Part shown: one piece after another, positions 8,586 through 63,466 of the stretch
Numbering within the stretch: position 1 is the first letter of the stretch
How the letters are laid out: every line of letters begins with the position of its first letter
NCBI RefSeq assembly: GCF_000512205.2
Contig: NZ_CP006644.1
Span: 2,598,520-2,662,519 of the forward strand
Length of the DNA stretch: 64,000 nt
Direction: 5' to 3'
Origin: Sphingomonas sanxanigenens DSM 19645 = NX02
Lineage (GTDB): Bacteria; Pseudomonadota; Alphaproteobacteria; Sphingomonadales; Sphingomonadaceae
Notes under the pieces: generated by a model
Told to the model about the DNA's origin: nothing
What the model saw: only the letters and a program-made list of their open reading frames with translations
Database searches by the model: none
Position numbers and translations under genes: made by a program

Positions 8586-9524
8586 TCACAGATCGCGGAC
8601 GGTCGCCATCGGGCCGCCCGCGCGGGTCAGCGCGTCGGCCAAAGCGACGAGCGCCGGCCGCGCCAGATGCAATCCGTCGATCAGCACCGACGACGGCACC
8701 ATCCCGCGCGCCACGTCTGCCCTGTCCTGTTCCGATCCGTCCGCGAGCCCTTGCAGGATCGGCAGCGCATCGAACATGTGCACGTCGCCATAGCGTGCGA
8801 CGAGTTCGCGCCGCAGCGCGGCCATATCGTCCCTCACGCGCTCGGCGGATGCCTGACCGGGCGTGACGACCGAAGGAATGATCAGCCAGTTGCGCCGCGG
8901 CGCCTTGAGCCGGACGATCGCATCGACAACGCCCAGTTCCATGCCGATCGAGCCGAGCGTGCGGCCGACGGCGGCGCCATCCCAGATCAGCAGCGGATTG
9001 TCGCGCAGCCCCGCGGCATCGATCCGCGCGCCGATCTGGCTGAAACTCGAGCCGCTGACGGCGGTGTTGTAGACGGCTTCCCTGAGGTTGCTCTCAACGA
9101 ACCGGCCCAGATAGAGACCGTTGCCGCGGTACGCCATGTAGCTGTCGCCCTCCAGGTGCCATTTGATCAGCGTCGGCCCGGGCGTTGGCGTTGGTGTCGG
9201 CGTGGGTGCCGGCGTTGGCGTGGGGGTCGGAGCAGGTGTCGGCGTTGGCGTGGGGGTCGGTAAGGGCGTTGGCGTTGGGGTGGGTGTCGGTGCCGGCACG
9301 GGCGTCGGCGTCGGCGTTGGTATGGGCGTCGGTGTCGGGGTGGGCGCCGGCGTTGGGGTCGGCGTGGGAGTGGGCACCGGAACGGGTGCCGGCGTCGGCG
9401 TGGATCCCGGCGTGGGCGTGGGCGTCGGGGCGGATCCCCCTGAACCTCCCCCGCCACAGCCCGGTACCGCCAGCGCCGCAGTCGACAGCAGGCCGTTTCG
9501 TAACAGCGTACGACGTGTGATCAT
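8586..9524 (-). CDS. SGNH-like hydrolase, Tat-type lipoprotein with Pro/Thr linker
   Basis: The 312-residue product begins with a twin-arginine leader (Thr-Arg-Arg-Thr-Leu-Leu) ending in a lipobox with Cys23, so it is probably exported folded and lipid-anchored. Residues 33-118 are an almost pure Pro-Thr/Pro-Ala linker. The globular domain has Gly-Asp-Ser (126-128), a Ser-Gly-Ser-Ser segment, an Asp-Gly-Ala-Ala-Val-Gly segment and an Asp283-Gly-Leu-His286 pair. This matches the order of SGNH/GDSL blocks (nucleophile Ser, catalytic Asp/His), but the Asn block is not canonical. Substrate is unknown; ester removal from a polysaccharide is a guess from the neighbourhood. The ATG at 9524 is preferred over an upstream GTG at 9539. 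A paralogue lies directly upstream. Confidence 0.65.
9171..9428 (-). repeat. Pro/Thr-encoding hexanucleotide-type tandem repeat
   Basis: About 258 bases encode residues 33-118 of the SGNH-like lipoprotein, nearly all Pro-Thr pairs interrupted by Pro-Ala, Pro-Val, Pro-Ile and Pro-Leu. On the plus strand it reads as degenerate GGCGTT/GGCGTG/GGTGTC hexamers. Such low-complexity DNA is prone to slippage, so linker length probably varies between strains. Proline-threonine linkers usually act as extended spacers lifting a domain from the membrane. Confidence 0.9.
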
Positions 9525-58048: not shown

Positions 58049-58717
58049 TCAGAGCCGTCCCTGGATCGTTTGTGAGAAGCCCGGGCCATCGCCCTGGCGC
58101 ACGGCGATATCGGCGGTGAAGCGGCCGCCTTCGCGGATGCGCAGCATCACCTGCTCCATTCCCGATTCCCCCACCAGCGGCAGCAGCAGCGCCCCGCCCT
58201 CGCAGCGGGCATTGCCGGTGAGGCCACCGCCCAGCCGAACGCCGGCAAGCGCGCCTTCCAGATTGGCGCGCACGCGGCCGCTGGCACGCTGGCACTGGCC
58301 ATCGGCGTAGCGCACCGAAAGGTCGGTGAGATCGATCGTCGAGAGCGGCAGCGGCGCGAAGCTGCTGCCCGCCTGCAGCTTGGCGGTGACATCGTCGATG
58401 CCGAAGCTGTTGCGCGAAATCCCGACCGCGCCATGCACGCCATCCGGCCCTTCCCCATCGAGATCGACGCGTGCCCGGCCGACGAGCAGTTGCACCGGCG
58501 AGAGCGATGCGCCGACGTCACCCAGCGGGATCGTGCCGACGCGCGCCTCGGTCAGCCCCCCGAACCAGACGCTGCCGCGCACCTCGCGCGCGGAAAAGCC
58601 GCTGTCGTCGAGCCCGATCGCACCGAGCGCGAGGCGCATCGGGAAGGTGATGATCAGCGCGGCGACGAAGGCGGCGATCAGCAGCGCGCGGCGCCCCAGC
58701 GGAAGCTTCAACCGCAT
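58049..58717 (-). CDS. gspN: Type II secretion system protein N
   Basis: The 222-residue product begins with a short cytoplasmic segment and one membrane helix (about 10-33), followed by a periplasmic beta-rich domain typical of GspN, including Gly-Ser-Val-Trp-Phe-Gly-Gly. GspN is an auxiliary inner-membrane part of some type II secretion systems. It is the last gene of the leftward operon; its start overlaps the gspM stop (TGATG). Position and topology support the call more than sequence motifs do. Confidence 0.82.
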   Translation of the reverse strand: MRLKLPLGRRALLIAAFVAALIITFPMRLALGAIGLDDSGFSAREVRGSVWFGGLTEARVGTIPLGDVGASLSPVQLLVGRARVDLDGEGPDGVHGAVGISRNSFGIDDVTAKLQAGSSFAPLPLSTIDLTDLSVRYADGQCQRASGRVRANLEGALAGVRLGGGLTGNARCEGGALLLPLVGESGMEQVMLRIREGGRFTADIAVRQGDGPGFSQTIQGRL

Positions 58718-59196
58718 CAGCGCATCCTTCCCCTGAGCGCGAGCTCGACGTTGAGCGTCGGATCGGCGTTGTCACGCACCACCAGCCGTTCGACCAGCAC
58801 GCCGCGCCGTTCGAGCCCGGCGATCCAGCCGAACAGCGCCGCCGGCCGGGCATTGGCGATGGTCAGCGTCAGATGATCGGCGCTGTCGGCGTTGAGGCTG
58901 GCGAAGGTGAAACCGGCCTCCCCCGCGGTCTGCCGCACGATGGTTTCCAGCGGGCCGTCGAGCGGCGCCGGCGCGGCGCGGGTCAGTGCGCGCAGCGCGT
59001 CGCGCTTGGCGAGCACCTCGCCATAGCCGATCACTGCCTGCGCATGGCGCTCCCGCGCCAGCGACAGTCCATCGGTTACCGGGCGCAGGATACCGAGCCA
59101 GACGATGACGATGGCGAGCAATGCCGCCATCACCAGCAGCATCCGCTGCTCGCGGAGCGACCGACCGCCCCACCACAGGCGCAGGCGCGCGTTCAT
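58717..59196 (-). CDS. gspM: Type II secretion system protein M
   Basis: The 159-residue inner-membrane protein has an N-terminal cytoplasmic tail with Arg-Glu-Gln-Arg, one helix (about 20-38) and a periplasmic ferredoxin-like domain. GspM partners GspL and helps anchor the assembly platform. It overlaps gspL (ATGA) and gspN (TGATG), indicating coupled translation. Confidence 0.87.
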   Translation of the reverse strand: MNARLRLWWGGRSLREQRMLLVMAALLAIVIVWLGILRPVTDGLSLARERHAQAVIGYGEVLAKRDALRALTRAAPAPLDGPLETIVRQTAGEAGFTFASLNADSADHLTLTIANARPAALFGWIAGLERRGVLVERLVVRDNADPTLNVELALRGRMR

Positions 59197-60314
59197 CGCG
59201 GCGCCACCGTCAGGTCGCCATTGATCCGGTCACCAGACTGCTGGAATACGCTGGGCACGACGCGCAGGCCGAGCGCCTCCAGCCTTGCCTTCACCGCCTC
59301 CACCTCGGGGCCGGTGCCTGCCGAGAGCGTGAGCTTCATCGTGCCATCCCGTTCAAAGGTCATTGCGTTGAGATCGACCGCGGGCACGGCTTCGACCGCG
59401 GCGAATACCGCGCCCGCGGTTATCGAAAAGCCGTAGCCGCCGCCCCGCATCCCTGCGAGCCGTTCATCGAGCAGCGCCACCGCATTGCCCTGCCCTGCGC
59501 CGCCGGGCAGCGCCTCCGCAGCCGCGACCTCGGCACGCCGTTCGAGTCCGTCCGCAGCGAGCGTGTAGCGCAGGATCAGCGCCAGGCTGATCGCCAGGGT
59601 CGCGCCGGCGATGGCGACGCCGATGGTGATGAGGCGCCGCACCTGTTTCCAGTCGATCGCCCACCGCCGGCGGCGCGCAAACGCGCCTTGCCTGAGATCG
59701 AGTGGCGGATCGGCGACACCTGCGGCGATCGCCCGCTCCAGCGCCTCGCTATCAAGCGTGTCGGTCGGCGCATCGCCGATCAGCAGCGGCGCCAGCTGCG
59801 GATCCTCGACGAAGCCGCTGTCGCGGCCGCGGACCACGACCTCACCGCCCAGCGCGCCGCGCACGAAGCCGGTCTCGGGCCGCGGCAGCAGCAAGGCAGC
59901 CGGCACGATCGCATCGGGATCGAGCCCGCGCGCCTGCAGCGCCGCCAGCCACGCGCTCATCCGCGCCGCATCCAGCGTCGCCATCGGGCGGACGCCCGCC
60001 TCGGCCTTATCATCCGGCTCGCCCAGCGCGACGTGCAGCGCGTCGGCCGGCTGAATCGTGTTCTCGGACGCCAGCAGCTTCGCAGCCGCGCGCGCCTGCG
60101 CGGGCGCCAGCTTGGGCAGTTCCGCCCAGTCGAGCGTCATCGCGCCCGCCGGTGCCACCGCGACGACGCGCTCGATCTCGGCGCTGTCCGCCGATGTCGC
60201 CGGAATCGTCTCGGCGCCCTCGCCACGCCCCACCACCGCATCGCCGGCGAAACGCAGCCAGCGCCACACGCTCTCCGGGCGCTCGGGCAAGAACAGCACC
60301 AGCGCATTGCTCAT
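59193..60314 (-). CDS. gspL: Type II secretion system protein L
   Basis: The 373-residue product has a large N-terminal cytoplasmic actin-like domain (about 1-230), one transmembrane helix (about 240-262, after basic Arg-Arg-Arg-Trp) and a periplasmic ferredoxin-like domain. GspL connects the GspE ATPase to the inner-membrane platform. The ATG at 60314 overlaps the gspK stop (ATGA); an in-frame ATG at 60329 is less likely. Confidence 0.9.
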   Translation of the reverse strand: MSNALVLFLPERPESVWRWLRFAGDAVVGRGEGAETIPATSADSAEIERVVAVAPAGAMTLDWAELPKLAPAQARAAAKLLASENTIQPADALHVALGEPDDKAEAGVRPMATLDAARMSAWLAALQARGLDPDAIVPAALLLPRPETGFVRGALGGEVVVRGRDSGFVEDPQLAPLLIGDAPTDTLDSEALERAIAAGVADPPLDLRQGAFARRRRWAIDWKQVRRLITIGVAIAGATLAISLALILRYTLAADGLERRAEVAAAEALPGGAGQGNAVALLDERLAGMRGGGYGFSITAGAVFAAVEAVPAVDLNAMTFERDGTMKLTLSAGTGPEVEAVKARLEALGLRVVPSVFQQSGDRINGDLTVAPR

Positions 60315-61306
60315 GAAGGATCCCCCCATTGCCGCCGCACCAGCCGCGAGGGCGTGCGCGTGGCATCGATCAGCGCGGTCTCGCTCAGCTCGGCGCCGGC
60401 CAGCTCGACGCTGATGTTCAGATTGAAATATCGCGTCCGCACCTTGATCTGCTCAGCCGCCTGCATCGGCGGCACCAGCGCCTCCAGCGCCGGCAGCTTC
60501 CAGAAGGCGGCGGGGCTCGAAAAGCCGTTCGCCGGCCGCTCGAGCAGCATCTGGCGCGCGCGCTCGAGCGTCAGTTGCTGCGGGATCAGCATGGCGAAGA
60601 GCGGCGCCTGTTCGGGCGACAGCGTGTTGACGTTGATCGGTGACGGCTCATTGTTCGGCAATGCGCAGATCCAAGGCCTGAGGCGCGCGTAGACTTCGGG
60701 CGTGACGCCGGCAACCGCACGCAATTCGCTGGGATCCTGGATCAGCATGTTGGGAGGAAGATAGGGCTCGGCGAGCGCGGCGTAATAATTGTCCTCGGCG
60801 CCGCCGGACCCCGGCATGCTGTCGGTATCGATCCAGTCCGCTAGCGAGACCGCGATCGTCCGCGCCTCCTGCGGCGGGATCTCCAGCAAGGTCATCAGCG
60901 CTTCGAACTGCGAGATCCCATAGGGAGAGGCCTGCTTCTCCAGCCCCTGCGCGCCGCTGACGACGCTGTTGAGGTTGAAGCAATTGCCGCCGTCCGAGAC
61001 GGTCGCCGTGGCGAGGCCGCCGGGGATCGGCAGGCGCTGGCGGCGGCCGTTCCAATTGCCCTCCAGCGTCGTGCGCGCCGCATCGCGCTCCATGATGTCG
61101 TCGATACGACGCTGCGCCAGCGTTTCCGCGGCATAGGCATAGGCCCGCGCCTGATCCGTCGCATTGGCGTTCGCGGCCAACCGCGTCGAGATGCGCAACT
61201 TCTCCAGCGCGCCGGCGGCGAGCACCGAGATCACCGCGACGAGCAGCAGCACCGTCAGCAGCGCGGCACCGCGCTCTCCAGCGGAAACGGGCGGACGCGC
61301 GCGCAT
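60311..61306 (-). CDS. gspK: Type II secretion minor pseudopilin K
   Basis: The 331-residue product has a short leader, a cleavage site near Glu-Arg-Gly13-Ala, and a hydrophobic helix. As usual for GspK, the Glu at position 5 of the mature protein is absent. The large periplasmic region includes Ser-Leu-Ala-Asp-Trp-Ile-Asp-Thr-Asp and Ile-Asn-Val-Asn-Thr. GspK caps the pseudopilus tip with GspI and GspJ. Its start overlaps the gspJ stop (TGATG). Unlike G, H and J, its leader has no 33-bp repeat. Confidence 0.92.
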   Translation of the reverse strand: MRARPPVSAGERGAALLTVLLLVAVISVLAAGALEKLRISTRLAANANATDQARAYAYAAETLAQRRIDDIMERDAARTTLEGNWNGRRQRLPIPGGLATATVSDGGNCFNLNSVVSGAQGLEKQASPYGISQFEALMTLLEIPPQEARTIAVSLADWIDTDSMPGSGGAEDNYYAALAEPYLPPNMLIQDPSELRAVAGVTPEVYARLRPWICALPNNEPSPINVNTLSPEQAPLFAMLIPQQLTLERARQMLLERPANGFSSPAAFWKLPALEALVPPMQAAEQIKVRTRYFNLNISVELAGAELSETALIDATRTPSRLVRRQWGDPS

Positions 61307-62019
61307 CAGTAGCCCGTCCCGACGAGGAAGAGCTGCCGATACTCTACGCCATCGCGGCGGCGGATGGTCAACTCCATCGCGCGCGGCAATCCCTCGGCGC
61401 GCGTCGGCTGCCACGTGTCCATCCAGTCATTGTCGATGCGGTAGCGGACGCTGAGCCGGTCGACATCGTCGAGCAACACCGATCGCGTGATCGGCTCGGC
61501 CCCGTCGAGCATGGCGAAGGGCACGCGTTCGAGCCGGCCGTCGACGAACTGATACTCGACGCGCTGCAGGCTGGCGCGCGCCGCGCCTTCGGCATTGGTC
61601 CAGCCGGTCCGCACGAAGGACAGGAAGGGCTCGCCATTGCTGACGGCAAGGCCATCGAAGGCGGGCAGCGGATCACCTTCCCGGTTACGGGTCGAGCGCG
61701 GGATCACCTGCGCCATGTCCGCCGAGACGATCGCGCCGACGCGGCCGAGCCCGGCGATCTCGGTCAGACGATCGCTCGCCGCCGCCTGCGCGCGCACGCT
61801 GAAGGCAAGGATTGCGACGCCGGCGCTGGCGAGCAGCGCAAAGATGAACAGCGCGACCAGAAGCTCCACGAGCGTGAAGCCGTGTTCGGCGGAACGCCTC
61901 ACGGGCGTGAAGCCGTGTTCGGCGGAACGCCTCACGGGCGTGAAGCCGTGTTCGGCGGAACGCCTCACGGGCGTGAAGCCGTGTTCGGCGGAACGCCGCG
62001 AAGACAGGATCGAGGTCAT
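61306..62019 (-). CDS. gspJ: Type II secretion minor pseudopilin J with repeat-expanded leader
   Basis: The 237-residue product starts at 62019, overlapping the gspI stop (ATGA). The leader is 47 residues and contains the 11-residue unit Arg-Arg-Ser-Ala-Glu-His-Gly-Phe-Thr-Pro-Val three times before the true site His-Gly47-Phe-Thr-Leu-Val-Glu. Gly occurs at 14, 25, 36 and 47, each followed by Phe-Thr. Only the last has Glu at mature position 5. The mature helix and pseudopilin fold look normal. Typical leaders are 5-25 residues, so this one is unusual. Confidence 0.93.
   Translation of the reverse strand: MTSILSSRRSAEHGFTPVRRSAEHGFTPVRRSAEHGFTPVRRSAEHGFTLVELLVALFIFALLASAGVAILAFSVRAQAAASDRLTEIAGLGRVGAIVSADMAQVIPRSTRNREGDPLPAFDGLAVSNGEPFLSFVRTGWTNAEGAARASLQRVEYQFVDGRLERVPFAMLDGAEPITRSVLLDDVDRLSVRYRIDNDWMDTWQPTRAEGLPRAMELTIRRRDGVEYRQLFLVGTGY
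61872..61997 (-). repeat. 33-bp minisatellite in the gspJ leader (about 3.8 copies)
   Basis: Copies begin at 61872, 61905, 61938 and 61971, the first three 33 bases each and identical in sequence; the last is 27 bases before diverging. On the plus strand each starts GCGTGAAGCCGTGTTCGG. The length keeps the gspJ frame and encodes an 11-residue unit with a prepilin-peptidase-like site. Near-identity of copies suggests recent or ongoing expansion. Confidence 0.95.
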
Positions 62020-62390
62020 TCGCGCGGCCTTACGATGGTGAGGCGCGCAGCCTGCAGGCCGGCCGCATCGAACACGGCGATATCGACGCGGGCGATGCGC
62101 TGGTCGCCGGTCAGCGAGGTGCGGCGCTCCCACCGCCACTGGCGACCGCCATTCTCGGCCTTGCCGTCGCTCTTGCCAAGCGATGGCGCGAGCGGATCGC
62201 TCAGGGTCTCGACCGCGACGTTGCGCGCCACCATCTGCCCCACGGTCTGCGTCTCGAGATCGGCCGTGCTGCGGATGGTCGCGCCCTCCAGCCGCAGCAA
62301 CGCCAGCGCGGCGAGGCTGAACACGATCAGCGCGACGAGCATTTCGAGGAGGGTGAAGCCGGCTTCCCCCTCGGGTTCTCCCCTATCCAT
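62016..62390 (-). CDS. gspI: Type II secretion minor pseudopilin I
   Basis: The 124-residue product has a normal short leader: Gly-Glu-Ala-Gly11 then Phe-Thr-Leu-Leu-Glu (Glu5 present), a hydrophobic helix, and a small pseudopilin domain. It forms the tip complex with GspJ and GspK. It overlaps gspH by eight bases and gspJ by four. It is the one pseudopilin with a GFT site whose leader carries no 33-bp repeats, a useful internal control. Confidence 0.93.
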   Translation of the reverse strand: MDRGEPEGEAGFTLLEMLVALIVFSLAALALLRLEGATIRSTADLETQTVGQMVARNVAVETLSDPLAPSLGKSDGKAENGGRQWRWERRTSLTGDQRIARVDIAVFDAAGLQAARLTIVRPRE

Positions 62391-62937
62391 CGATCCGCAC
62401 CGTACCGTCGGTATCGATCACCACGATGCTCCGCACGCCCTCGCGCAACAGCGTGACTTCCATGCGCTGGCTGGCGAGGCCGGTGGAATCGAAGGTTACC
62501 CGGCTGCGGCCACCCGCGGCGACAGCGACGGTGCCGTCCGTCCATTCCTCGGGGCGGAAAGGCTTATCCGAGAGCGGTACCCAGCGGCCGGCGCGGCGCG
62601 CCTCGAAGCGATAGCCCTGGGCGGAAACGCTGAGGTTGATGCTGTGCGATTCCACGACCGCCGCATCGCGCGCTGCCTTGGCGCGCGCCGCGAAACGCTC
62701 GGCCTCATCGACCAGGCGGCCGCGCGGATCGGGCATCGCGAGCACCACCGCCGCCGACATCAACGCCACGATCGTGATCACGATCATCAGTTCGACAAGC
62801 GTGAAGCCGTGTTCGGCGGCACGCCTCAGGGACGTGAAGCCGTGCTCGGCGGAACGCCTGAGAGACGTGAAGCCGCGTTCGGCGGAACGCCGCAAGGGCG
62901 CGAAGCCCTGTGCCAGATCGCTCCGCCGCGAAGTCAT
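62383..62937 (-). CDS. gspH: Type II secretion minor pseudopilin H with repeat-expanded leader
   Basis: The 184-residue product starts at 62937. Its 44-residue leader has Gly at 11, 22, 33 and 44, each followed by Phe (Gly-Phe-Ala-Pro, Gly-Phe-Thr-Ser, Gly-Phe-Thr-Ser, then the true Gly44-Phe-Thr-Leu-Val-Glu). The units have diverged more than in gspJ. The mature protein is a normal GspH pseudopilin with an N-terminal helix and beta domain. It lies four bases after the gspG stop. Confidence 0.92.
   Translation of the reverse strand: MTSRRSDLAQGFAPLRRSAERGFTSLRRSAEHGFTSLRRAAEHGFTLVELMIVITIVALMSAAVVLAMPDPRGRLVDEAERFAARAKAARDAAVVESHSINLSVSAQGYRFEARRAGRWVPLSDKPFRPEEWTDGTVAVAAGGRSRVTFDSTGLASQRMEVTLLREGVRSIVVIDTDGTVRIDG
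62799..62920 (-). repeat. Diverged 33-bp minisatellite in the gspH leader
   Basis: Units begin at 62799, 62832, 62865 and (degenerate) 62898, each 33 bases. They share the GTGAAGCCG...TCGGCGGAACGC core of the gspJ units but differ at several bases, for example GACGTGAAG and AGACGTGAAG junctions. The array is in frame and codes for the repeated leader units. Divergence suggests it is older than the gspJ array. Confidence 0.92.
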
Positions 62938-62941
62938 CGGA

Positions 62942-63466
62942 TTACTGCCAGCTGCCGATATCGGCGTTGTCGTCCGTCCCGCCCTCGACGCCGTCGGCGC
63001 CATAGGACCAGATGTCGAACGGACCATTCCGGCCCGGCGCGCTATAATTGTACGGGCGGCCCCACGGATCGTCCGGCAGCTTCTTGATATAGCCGCCGCG
63101 CTGATAGCGTTGCGCGTTCTGCAGCGACGGCGGCGGGGTCAGCAGCGCCGAAAGACCATCCCCGGTCGACGGGTAGTTCAGGTTGTGCAGCCGGTACATC
63201 TCCAGCGCCTGCTCGATCGTGGCGATGTCCGCCTTGGCCTTGTCGACGCGGGCACGGTCCCCGGCGGGGATCACGTTGATCGCGACGATCGTGGCGAGCA
63301 GGCCGATGATCACGATCACGACCATCAACTCCACCAGCGTGAAGCCGTGTTCGGCGGAACGCCTCACGGGCGTGAAGCCGTCTTCGTCCGGCCGGCGTGC
63401 CGGCCCGGCCGCCAGGCGGCGGCGCAAGGAAGCAAGGATCGGGGAACTACGCATGAAAAACCTCAT
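62942..63466 (-). CDS. gspG: Type II secretion major pseudopilin G
   Basis: The 174-residue product starts at 63466, overlapping the gspF stop (ATGA). The leader is 41 residues, with Gly30-Phe-Thr-Pro and the true His-Gly41-Phe-Thr-Leu-Val-Glu. The mature protein has the GspG signature helix and the C-terminal Pro-Trp-Gly-Arg-Pro-Tyr-Asn-Tyr and an Asp-rich calcium site. It is the main component of the pseudopilus. The leader has one complete and one partial copy of the repeat found in gspH and gspJ. Confidence 0.95.
   Translation of the reverse strand: MRFFMRSSPILASLRRRLAAGPARRPDEDGFTPVRRSAEHGFTLVELMVVIVIIGLLATIVAINVIPAGDRARVDKAKADIATIEQALEMYRLHNLNYPSTGDGLSALLTPPPSLQNAQRYQRGGYIKKLPDDPWGRPYNYSAPGRNGPFDIWSYGADGVEGGTDDNADIGSWQ
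63337..63389 (-). repeat. 33-bp unit (one full and one partial) in the gspG leader
   Basis: The full unit is 63337-63369 and matches the gspJ consensus exactly over 33 bases; a second unit starts at 63370 and diverges after about 20 bases. It encodes the leader segment with Gly30 and Gly41. It links gspG to the expanded arrays in gspH and gspJ. Confidence 0.92.

Follow-up and report, generated by a model that had tools for sequence, protein, structure and literature searches.

Pseudopilin leaders of the type II secretion system (T2SS) of Sphingomonas sanxanigenens NX02 carry a 33-bp sequence that is repeated in frame. We consider it probable, with some reservation, that this is a translated minisatellite in a length-tolerant, cleaved-off leader, and that its units are copied by slippage and by recombination from gene to gene. 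Prepilin leaders have been treated as short and uniform; those of sphingomonads appear to grow by tandem copies exchanged among four genes, which would leave leader length nearly free in the sphingomonad T2SS.

Repeats in the NX02 operon

In the window (the whole 64,000-nucleotide stretch of NX02 DNA that was analyzed), the minus-strand gene gspJ starts with an ATG at 62019-62017 that overlaps the gspI stop codon as ATGA. The predicted GspJ begins MTSILSS-(RRSAEHGFTPV)x3-RRSAEHG|FTLVELL. Each unit of 11 codons (RRSAEHGFTPV) consists of a 21-bp core, CGTTCCGCCGAACACGGCTTC, encoding R-S-A-E-H-G-F, and a 12-bp linker. All units are alike except for the first codon of unit 1, which is CGG instead of AGG. 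Tandem Repeats Finder reports a 33-bp period with 4.0 copies and 98% matches at 61867-61997. This call and the minus-strand translation agree on the in-frame minisatellite that an earlier note had described in this leader, and the 47 leader residues with Gly at 14, 25, 36, and 47, also described there, can be read directly from the translation.

The array is not a peculiarity of GspJ. The earlier note overlooked a second array in the gspH leader, scored as 3.4 copies by Tandem Repeats Finder (62800-62911) and preceded by an in-register, ancestral-type GF (AQGFAPL), and a single unit in the gspG leader (Table 1). Within the NX02 operon, gspI is the only class III precursor that lacks a unit, and GspI carries units in other species. 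Across the NX02 genome, the N-methylation motif of class III signal peptides was detected at a convincing score only in gspG, gspH, gspI, and gspJ, so three of the four recognizable precursors bear the unit. All four have the Gly|Phe junction, Glu5, hydrophobic helix, and family HMM match of class III proteins; GspG, GspI, and GspJ have Pfam/NCBIfam hits above cut-off, and GspH scores above that of Pfam. With gspF, gspE, and gspD lying upstream, outside the window, the T2SS operon from gspD to gspN looks complete. The genome has one gene of the prepilin peptidase family (Peptidase_A24), about 90 kb from the operon.

Table 1. Pseudopilin genes and repeat features of the T2SS operon in the window.
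Feature	Position	Strand	Support
gspK, gspL, gspM, gspN, downstream of gspJ	58049..61309	-	
gspJ, minor pseudopilin, 237 aa, 47-aa leader	61306..62019	-	Pfam T2SSJ E 3.9e-37; TIGR01711 E 1.3e-31; N_methyl E 3e-8
gspJ leader array, three 33-bp units and terminal RRSAEHG	61879..61998	-	
gspJ full units	61998-61966, 61965-61933, 61932-61900	-	
gspJ terminal RRSAEHG	61899-61879	-	
gspJ cores	61975-61995, 61942-61962, 61909-61929, 61876-61896	-	
gspI, minor pseudopilin, leader MDRGEPEGEAG	62016..62390	-	Pfam T2SSI E 1.6e-19
gspH, minor pseudopilin, leader about 44 aa	62383..62937	-	Pfam GspH E 2.1e-7; TIGR01708 E 5.9e-20, below cut-off 80
gspH leader array, three diverged units, cores 62869-62889, 62836-62856, 62803-62823	62800..62911	-	
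gspG, major pseudopilin, 41-aa leader	62942..63466	-	Pfam T2SSG E 1.9e-38; TIGR01710 E 1.4e-50
gspG inserted 33-bp unit, core 63341-63361	63338..63370	-	Direct sequence reading

A search of the 6.58-Mb genome with a 25-bp version of the core, allowing up to 3 mismatches, returned eight matches, all in the operon and on a single strand, and none with the reversed sequence as control, which rules out a chance origin of the repeats. Elsewhere in the window, positions 9181-9428 hold GGCGTTGGCGT-type units in a long, imperfect tandem array with periods of 24 to 60 bp.

Distribution and turnover of copy number

In 84,980 prokaryote species, 64 stretches contain a tandem pair, as defined by a pattern of two AE[HN]GF units spaced 33 bp apart with synonymous sites left free. 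By title these belong to Sphingomonas, Sphingobium, Hephaestia, sphingomonad metagenome-assembled genomes (MAGs), two MAGs assigned only to Proteobacteria, one uncultured bacterium, and one Microvirga, the last being the only title that names a lineage outside the sphingomonads. That record, Microvirga sp. SRT01, contains a sphingomonad T2SS. The label is probably wrong, because its gspJ falls inside Sphingomonas (99% support). In a sample of the family, 23 of 398 genomes match the pair pattern and 30 match a single core. In these 30 the core is confined to the pseudopilin operon, bar four single weak or isolated matches. A plasmid search with the array recovered ordinary GspG proteins only.

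Of the 385 distinct cores in the loci retrieved, 380 lie in frame upstream of a class III cleavage motif. The claim that frame is kept rests on this count; a tally of stop codons by frame is partly circular, as units were picked without in-frame stops. The gap between adjacent cores is exactly 33 bp in 222 of 224 cases (one is 30 bp). A unit of this size changes leader length and not reading frame, so the array is no on/off switch of the phase-variation kind. A dispersed REP or mobile repeat is likewise ruled out by the restriction of the unit to the operon in the NX02 genome, the family genomes, and the fetched loci.

Any of the gspG, gspH, gspI, and gspJ leaders of sphingomonads may hold from 0 to 9 units. 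The earlier note had allowed that the units might be a fixed part of every sphingomonad GspJ; this is excluded by the 38 of 89 gathered GspJ sequences that have none, a count biased towards carriers, as are all per-gene presence counts here, since the loci were gathered via the core pattern.

Copy number also varies between species, as the earlier note had anticipated for strains or cells; the sample holds one genome per species, and all comparisons are thus between species. Only 8 of 42 pairs of close relatives (mature genes identical at 88% or more of their nucleotides, a unit present in one or both members) have equal numbers of units. The gspJ leaders of Sphingobium abikonense and S. lactosutens have two and five units, respectively, upstream of mature genes that are 95% identical. 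Close relatives with near-identical mature proteins have anywhere from 0 to 7 copies, and the presence of two or more units requires at least 17 changes on a tree of mature GspJ.

A proposed route of unit gain

The gspG gene of NX02 appears to preserve a record of insertion. Its old cleavage codons, GGC TTC ACG (GGCTTCACG), lie at 63379-63371 after Asp-Glu-Asp, and the same 9 bp recur 33 bp further on, at 63346-63338, before CTG GTG GAG (FTLVE); relatives without a unit read NEDG|FTLVE. The gspG unit is thus an insertion at the cleavage codons, flanked by a 9-bp direct repeat, and the retention of the ancestral codons exactly 33 bp upstream suggests that units enter at this 9-bp sequence. More broadly, 63 of 140 leaders have a GF dipeptide at a distance of one unit on the upstream side of the array; at offset registers, only 2 of about 1,390 control positions do. 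Under a stricter filter, 31 of the 63 resemble ancestral sites more than decayed units.

Linker divergence is 0.215 for copies in one array, 0.333 for genes that share a locus, and 0.468 between loci, and identical linker 12-mers account for 46%, 24%, and 3% of comparisons at these levels. The 12-bp linkers are homogenized inside each array and, to a lesser degree, among the genes of a genome; part of the between-gene identity could reflect descent from old duplications. Most simply, judging from these products, the GGC-TTC-ACG of one leader may recombine with, or slip onto, the matching 9 bp at a unit border in another leader or in the same array. Each gain would place another 33 bp after the old Gly-Phe and ahead of the hydrophobic helix, without ever breaking the frame, and further slippage would lengthen and shorten the array. 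The leaders of gspH and gspJ in Sphingobium quisquiliarum share a longer, almost identical sequence (VPAFAGTRWGADERGFRLSGRSAEHGFTLSRRSAEHG and VPAFEGTRSGADERGFRLSGRSAEHGFTLSRRSAEHG), which looks like a copy of one leader placed in the other gene.

Nucleotide conservation of the core

The 21-bp core is kept across genera at the nucleotide level, synonymous sites included, against local codon preference. Where two sequences have the same residue, codon identity is 0.94 in the core versus 0.66 in the next 11 codons. CGT stands at 83-92% in the core versus 10% in mature parts, TCC 94-97% versus 16%, and GCC 97-99% versus 31%; GAA, at 40% in mature parts, falls within the same overall core range of 83-99%. 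With one vote per genome, GCC is the majority codon in 70 of 71 genomes and GAA in 69 of 71. The search pattern accepted any synonymous spelling of A, E, H, G, and F and did not include R and S, so it did not force the codon shares or the codon-identity comparison. An exact-codon pattern supplied about 30 later loci, but these contributed only three leaders. The copies are mutually related, and hence no formal p-values are given.

Several sources of this identity were considered and set aside. Codon optimization does not explain it, as ribosomal genes use TCC at 13%, GCC at 37%, and GAA at 30%. Recent horizontal spread of whole units is unlikely, given that linkers of different loci differ by 47% and cores by 9%. 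Core divergence is nearly the same at every level (0.059 within an array, 0.081 between genes of a locus, 0.088 between loci), and linker divergence is not, so local homogenization is not the cause. Nor can the function of the leader as a protein account for conservation at the nucleotide level. Selection for stable RNA folding is not supported: the array folds better than dinucleotide shuffles (z -3.1), but synonymously randomized cores are at least as stable in 12.5% of units and 63% of arrays. An outer stem between core and linker is unconvincing (paired fraction 0.754 versus 0.737 in shuffles), and Rfam covariance models gave only a sub-threshold chance match outside the arrays. We think that the core is held either by a signal that acts in cis, as DNA or as mRNA, or by the need of the copying process for this site.

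In a possible, if doubtful, alternative for the system as a whole, the core is primarily a nucleic acid signal, either an mRNA element or a protein-binding DNA site, selected in each pseudopilin gene, with the peptide as a by-product and copy number tuning the expression or stoichiometry of gspG, gspH, gspI, and gspJ. Strong synonymous conservation across genera speaks for it, as does a short inverted repeat, GCCG-AACA-CGGC, that nearly all copies retain. This repeat shows a paired double change to GCCC-AACA-GGGC (EH to QQ) in the gspH genes of several species of Sphingobium as well as in other genes or genera. However, the double change may represent one to three events, the randomized cores fold about equally well, Rfam holds no match, and the core is wholly absent from many relatives. 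An unlikely variant combines this signal with the copying process; the core would be a selected cis nucleic acid element doubling as signal-peptide code, homing between leaders via the cleavage codons, with its copy number tuning the amount of pseudopilin. If true, it would be a site-specific translated micro-element that lives in prepilin leaders only. The nucleotide-level conservation of the core lends itself to direct testing.

Leader length and cleavage

Prepilin peptidase cuts after a membrane-adjacent Gly that precedes a hydrophobic stretch of 20-25 residues, and the leader, which remains on the cytosolic side, is cleaved off (PMC10191384). Published leader lengths are 6-26 aa, or about 15-30 aa for type IVb (PMC4471445). 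With the upstream ATGs as start codons, the leaders of NX02 (GspJ 47 aa, GspH about 44 aa, GspG 41 aa) would lie beyond this 6-30 aa range. The earlier note took every Gly-Phe of the GspJ array as a candidate cut site. The internal copies precede a linker and RRSAEH, with no hydrophobic helix; the last Gly-Phe alone precedes the membrane helix, which leaves the idea of four cut sites unsupported. From the sequence, cleavage should occur only at this last site.

In the translated-minisatellite reading, the leader would stay cytosolic and be removed by prepilin peptidase at the last Gly|Phe only, and with leader length nearly free the array would have little effect on the mature protein. In keeping with such tolerance, the leaders of close relatives are wholly different in length and sequence, and some contain in-frame inverted repeats of other kinds. 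Counting against a tolerant leader, the internal cores are conserved as well as the terminal ones, whereas decay of internal cores would be predicted if the leader were free to fill with junk. The range of lengths among sphingomonads forms a natural series that should be useful for studying the requirements of prepilin peptidase and SRP.

The same internal conservation bears on an improbable alternative, that the repeats act as protein, the extra RRSAEHGF copies either strengthening binding to SRP, to the membrane, or to prepilin peptidase, or timing the processing. Internal copies do keep their residues, and they add positive charges to a part of the protein that has to remain in the cytosol. 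Yet synonymous sites are conserved equally to other sites, unit-free leaders are common, and copies range from 0 to 7 among close relatives with near-identical mature proteins. More improbable still is initiation of translation inside the array, where an in-frame GTG in each gspJ linker (its third codon) would give an eight-residue leader, MRRSAEHG, and leave most of the array untranslated. ATG, GTG, or TTG occupies that codon in 37% of linkers before the last unit, but 63% have no such codon, a start codon lies ahead of the array in 101 of 102 multi-unit leaders, frame is preserved in 380 of 385 cores, and no Shine-Dalgarno-like sequence precedes the gspJ GTGs.

An assembly artefact can be dismissed as exceedingly improbable: contigs of Sphingomonas laterariae do break in arrays, and two of them share identical bases with unequal copy numbers, but the pattern repeats in dozens of assemblies, including one labeled a complete genome (L100), and the 130-bp NX02 array is short and lies inside a 6.2-Mb contig. 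The two S. laterariae contigs (end of L082, start of L089) have 1,740 identical bases over gspG-J, and both break inside an array; gspG has four versus at least seven units and gspJ at least nine versus five. They may represent either an assembly fork through the common repeats or a real duplication via recombination between arrays. In a separate locus, the gspD frame (L174:9326-12535, minus strand) spans 1,069 codons and its N0 domain begins only at residue 339, consistent with either a far-upstream false start or an N-terminal extension or fusion.

Comparison with known systems

The open-access papers that we searched contain no description of tandem repeats in prepilin leaders, which does not prove that such repeats are new. 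The NX02 proteins share with class III GspG, GspH, GspI, and GspJ a hydrophilic leader ending in Gly, followed by Phe, Glu5, and a hydrophobic helix, and curated HMMs match them; they differ in leaders of 41-47 aa that contain tandem copies of the leader's own last residues. As in bacterial coding minisatellites and VNTRs, the 33-bp unit is tandem, in frame, and a multiple of 3 bp, with differences in copy number (here between close species). In contrast to these, it sits in a cleaved leader, is common to four paralogous genes of one operon, and has a core whose nucleotide sequence is conserved across genera.

Rickettsia palindromic elements are also short repeats with inverted symmetry that are translated in frame inside genes (PMC10969869). 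These, however, are about 150 bp long and dispersed in unrelated genes, whereas the 33-bp unit is restricted to a single gene family, strand, and site. Unlike REP/BIME-type palindromes, the unit is neither dispersed in the genome nor extragenic, but elements of that type do occur in frame in other leaders of relatives. Inverted repeats unrelated to the unit are read in frame in such leaders, among them HPGESRDP...DPGFRRDD in Sphingobium sp. 15-1 and the element VPAEAGTQ...WVPAFAGT. In pseudopilin leaders of other sphingomonads, different translated in-frame repeats, most of them inverted, were observed at L060:6393-6494, L061:5211-5303, L061:6287-6382, L018:1360-1464, and L021:168-233. The element in the gspJ leader of L018 / G032 is dispersed, with about 78 matches in its own genome and 64 in that of NX02.
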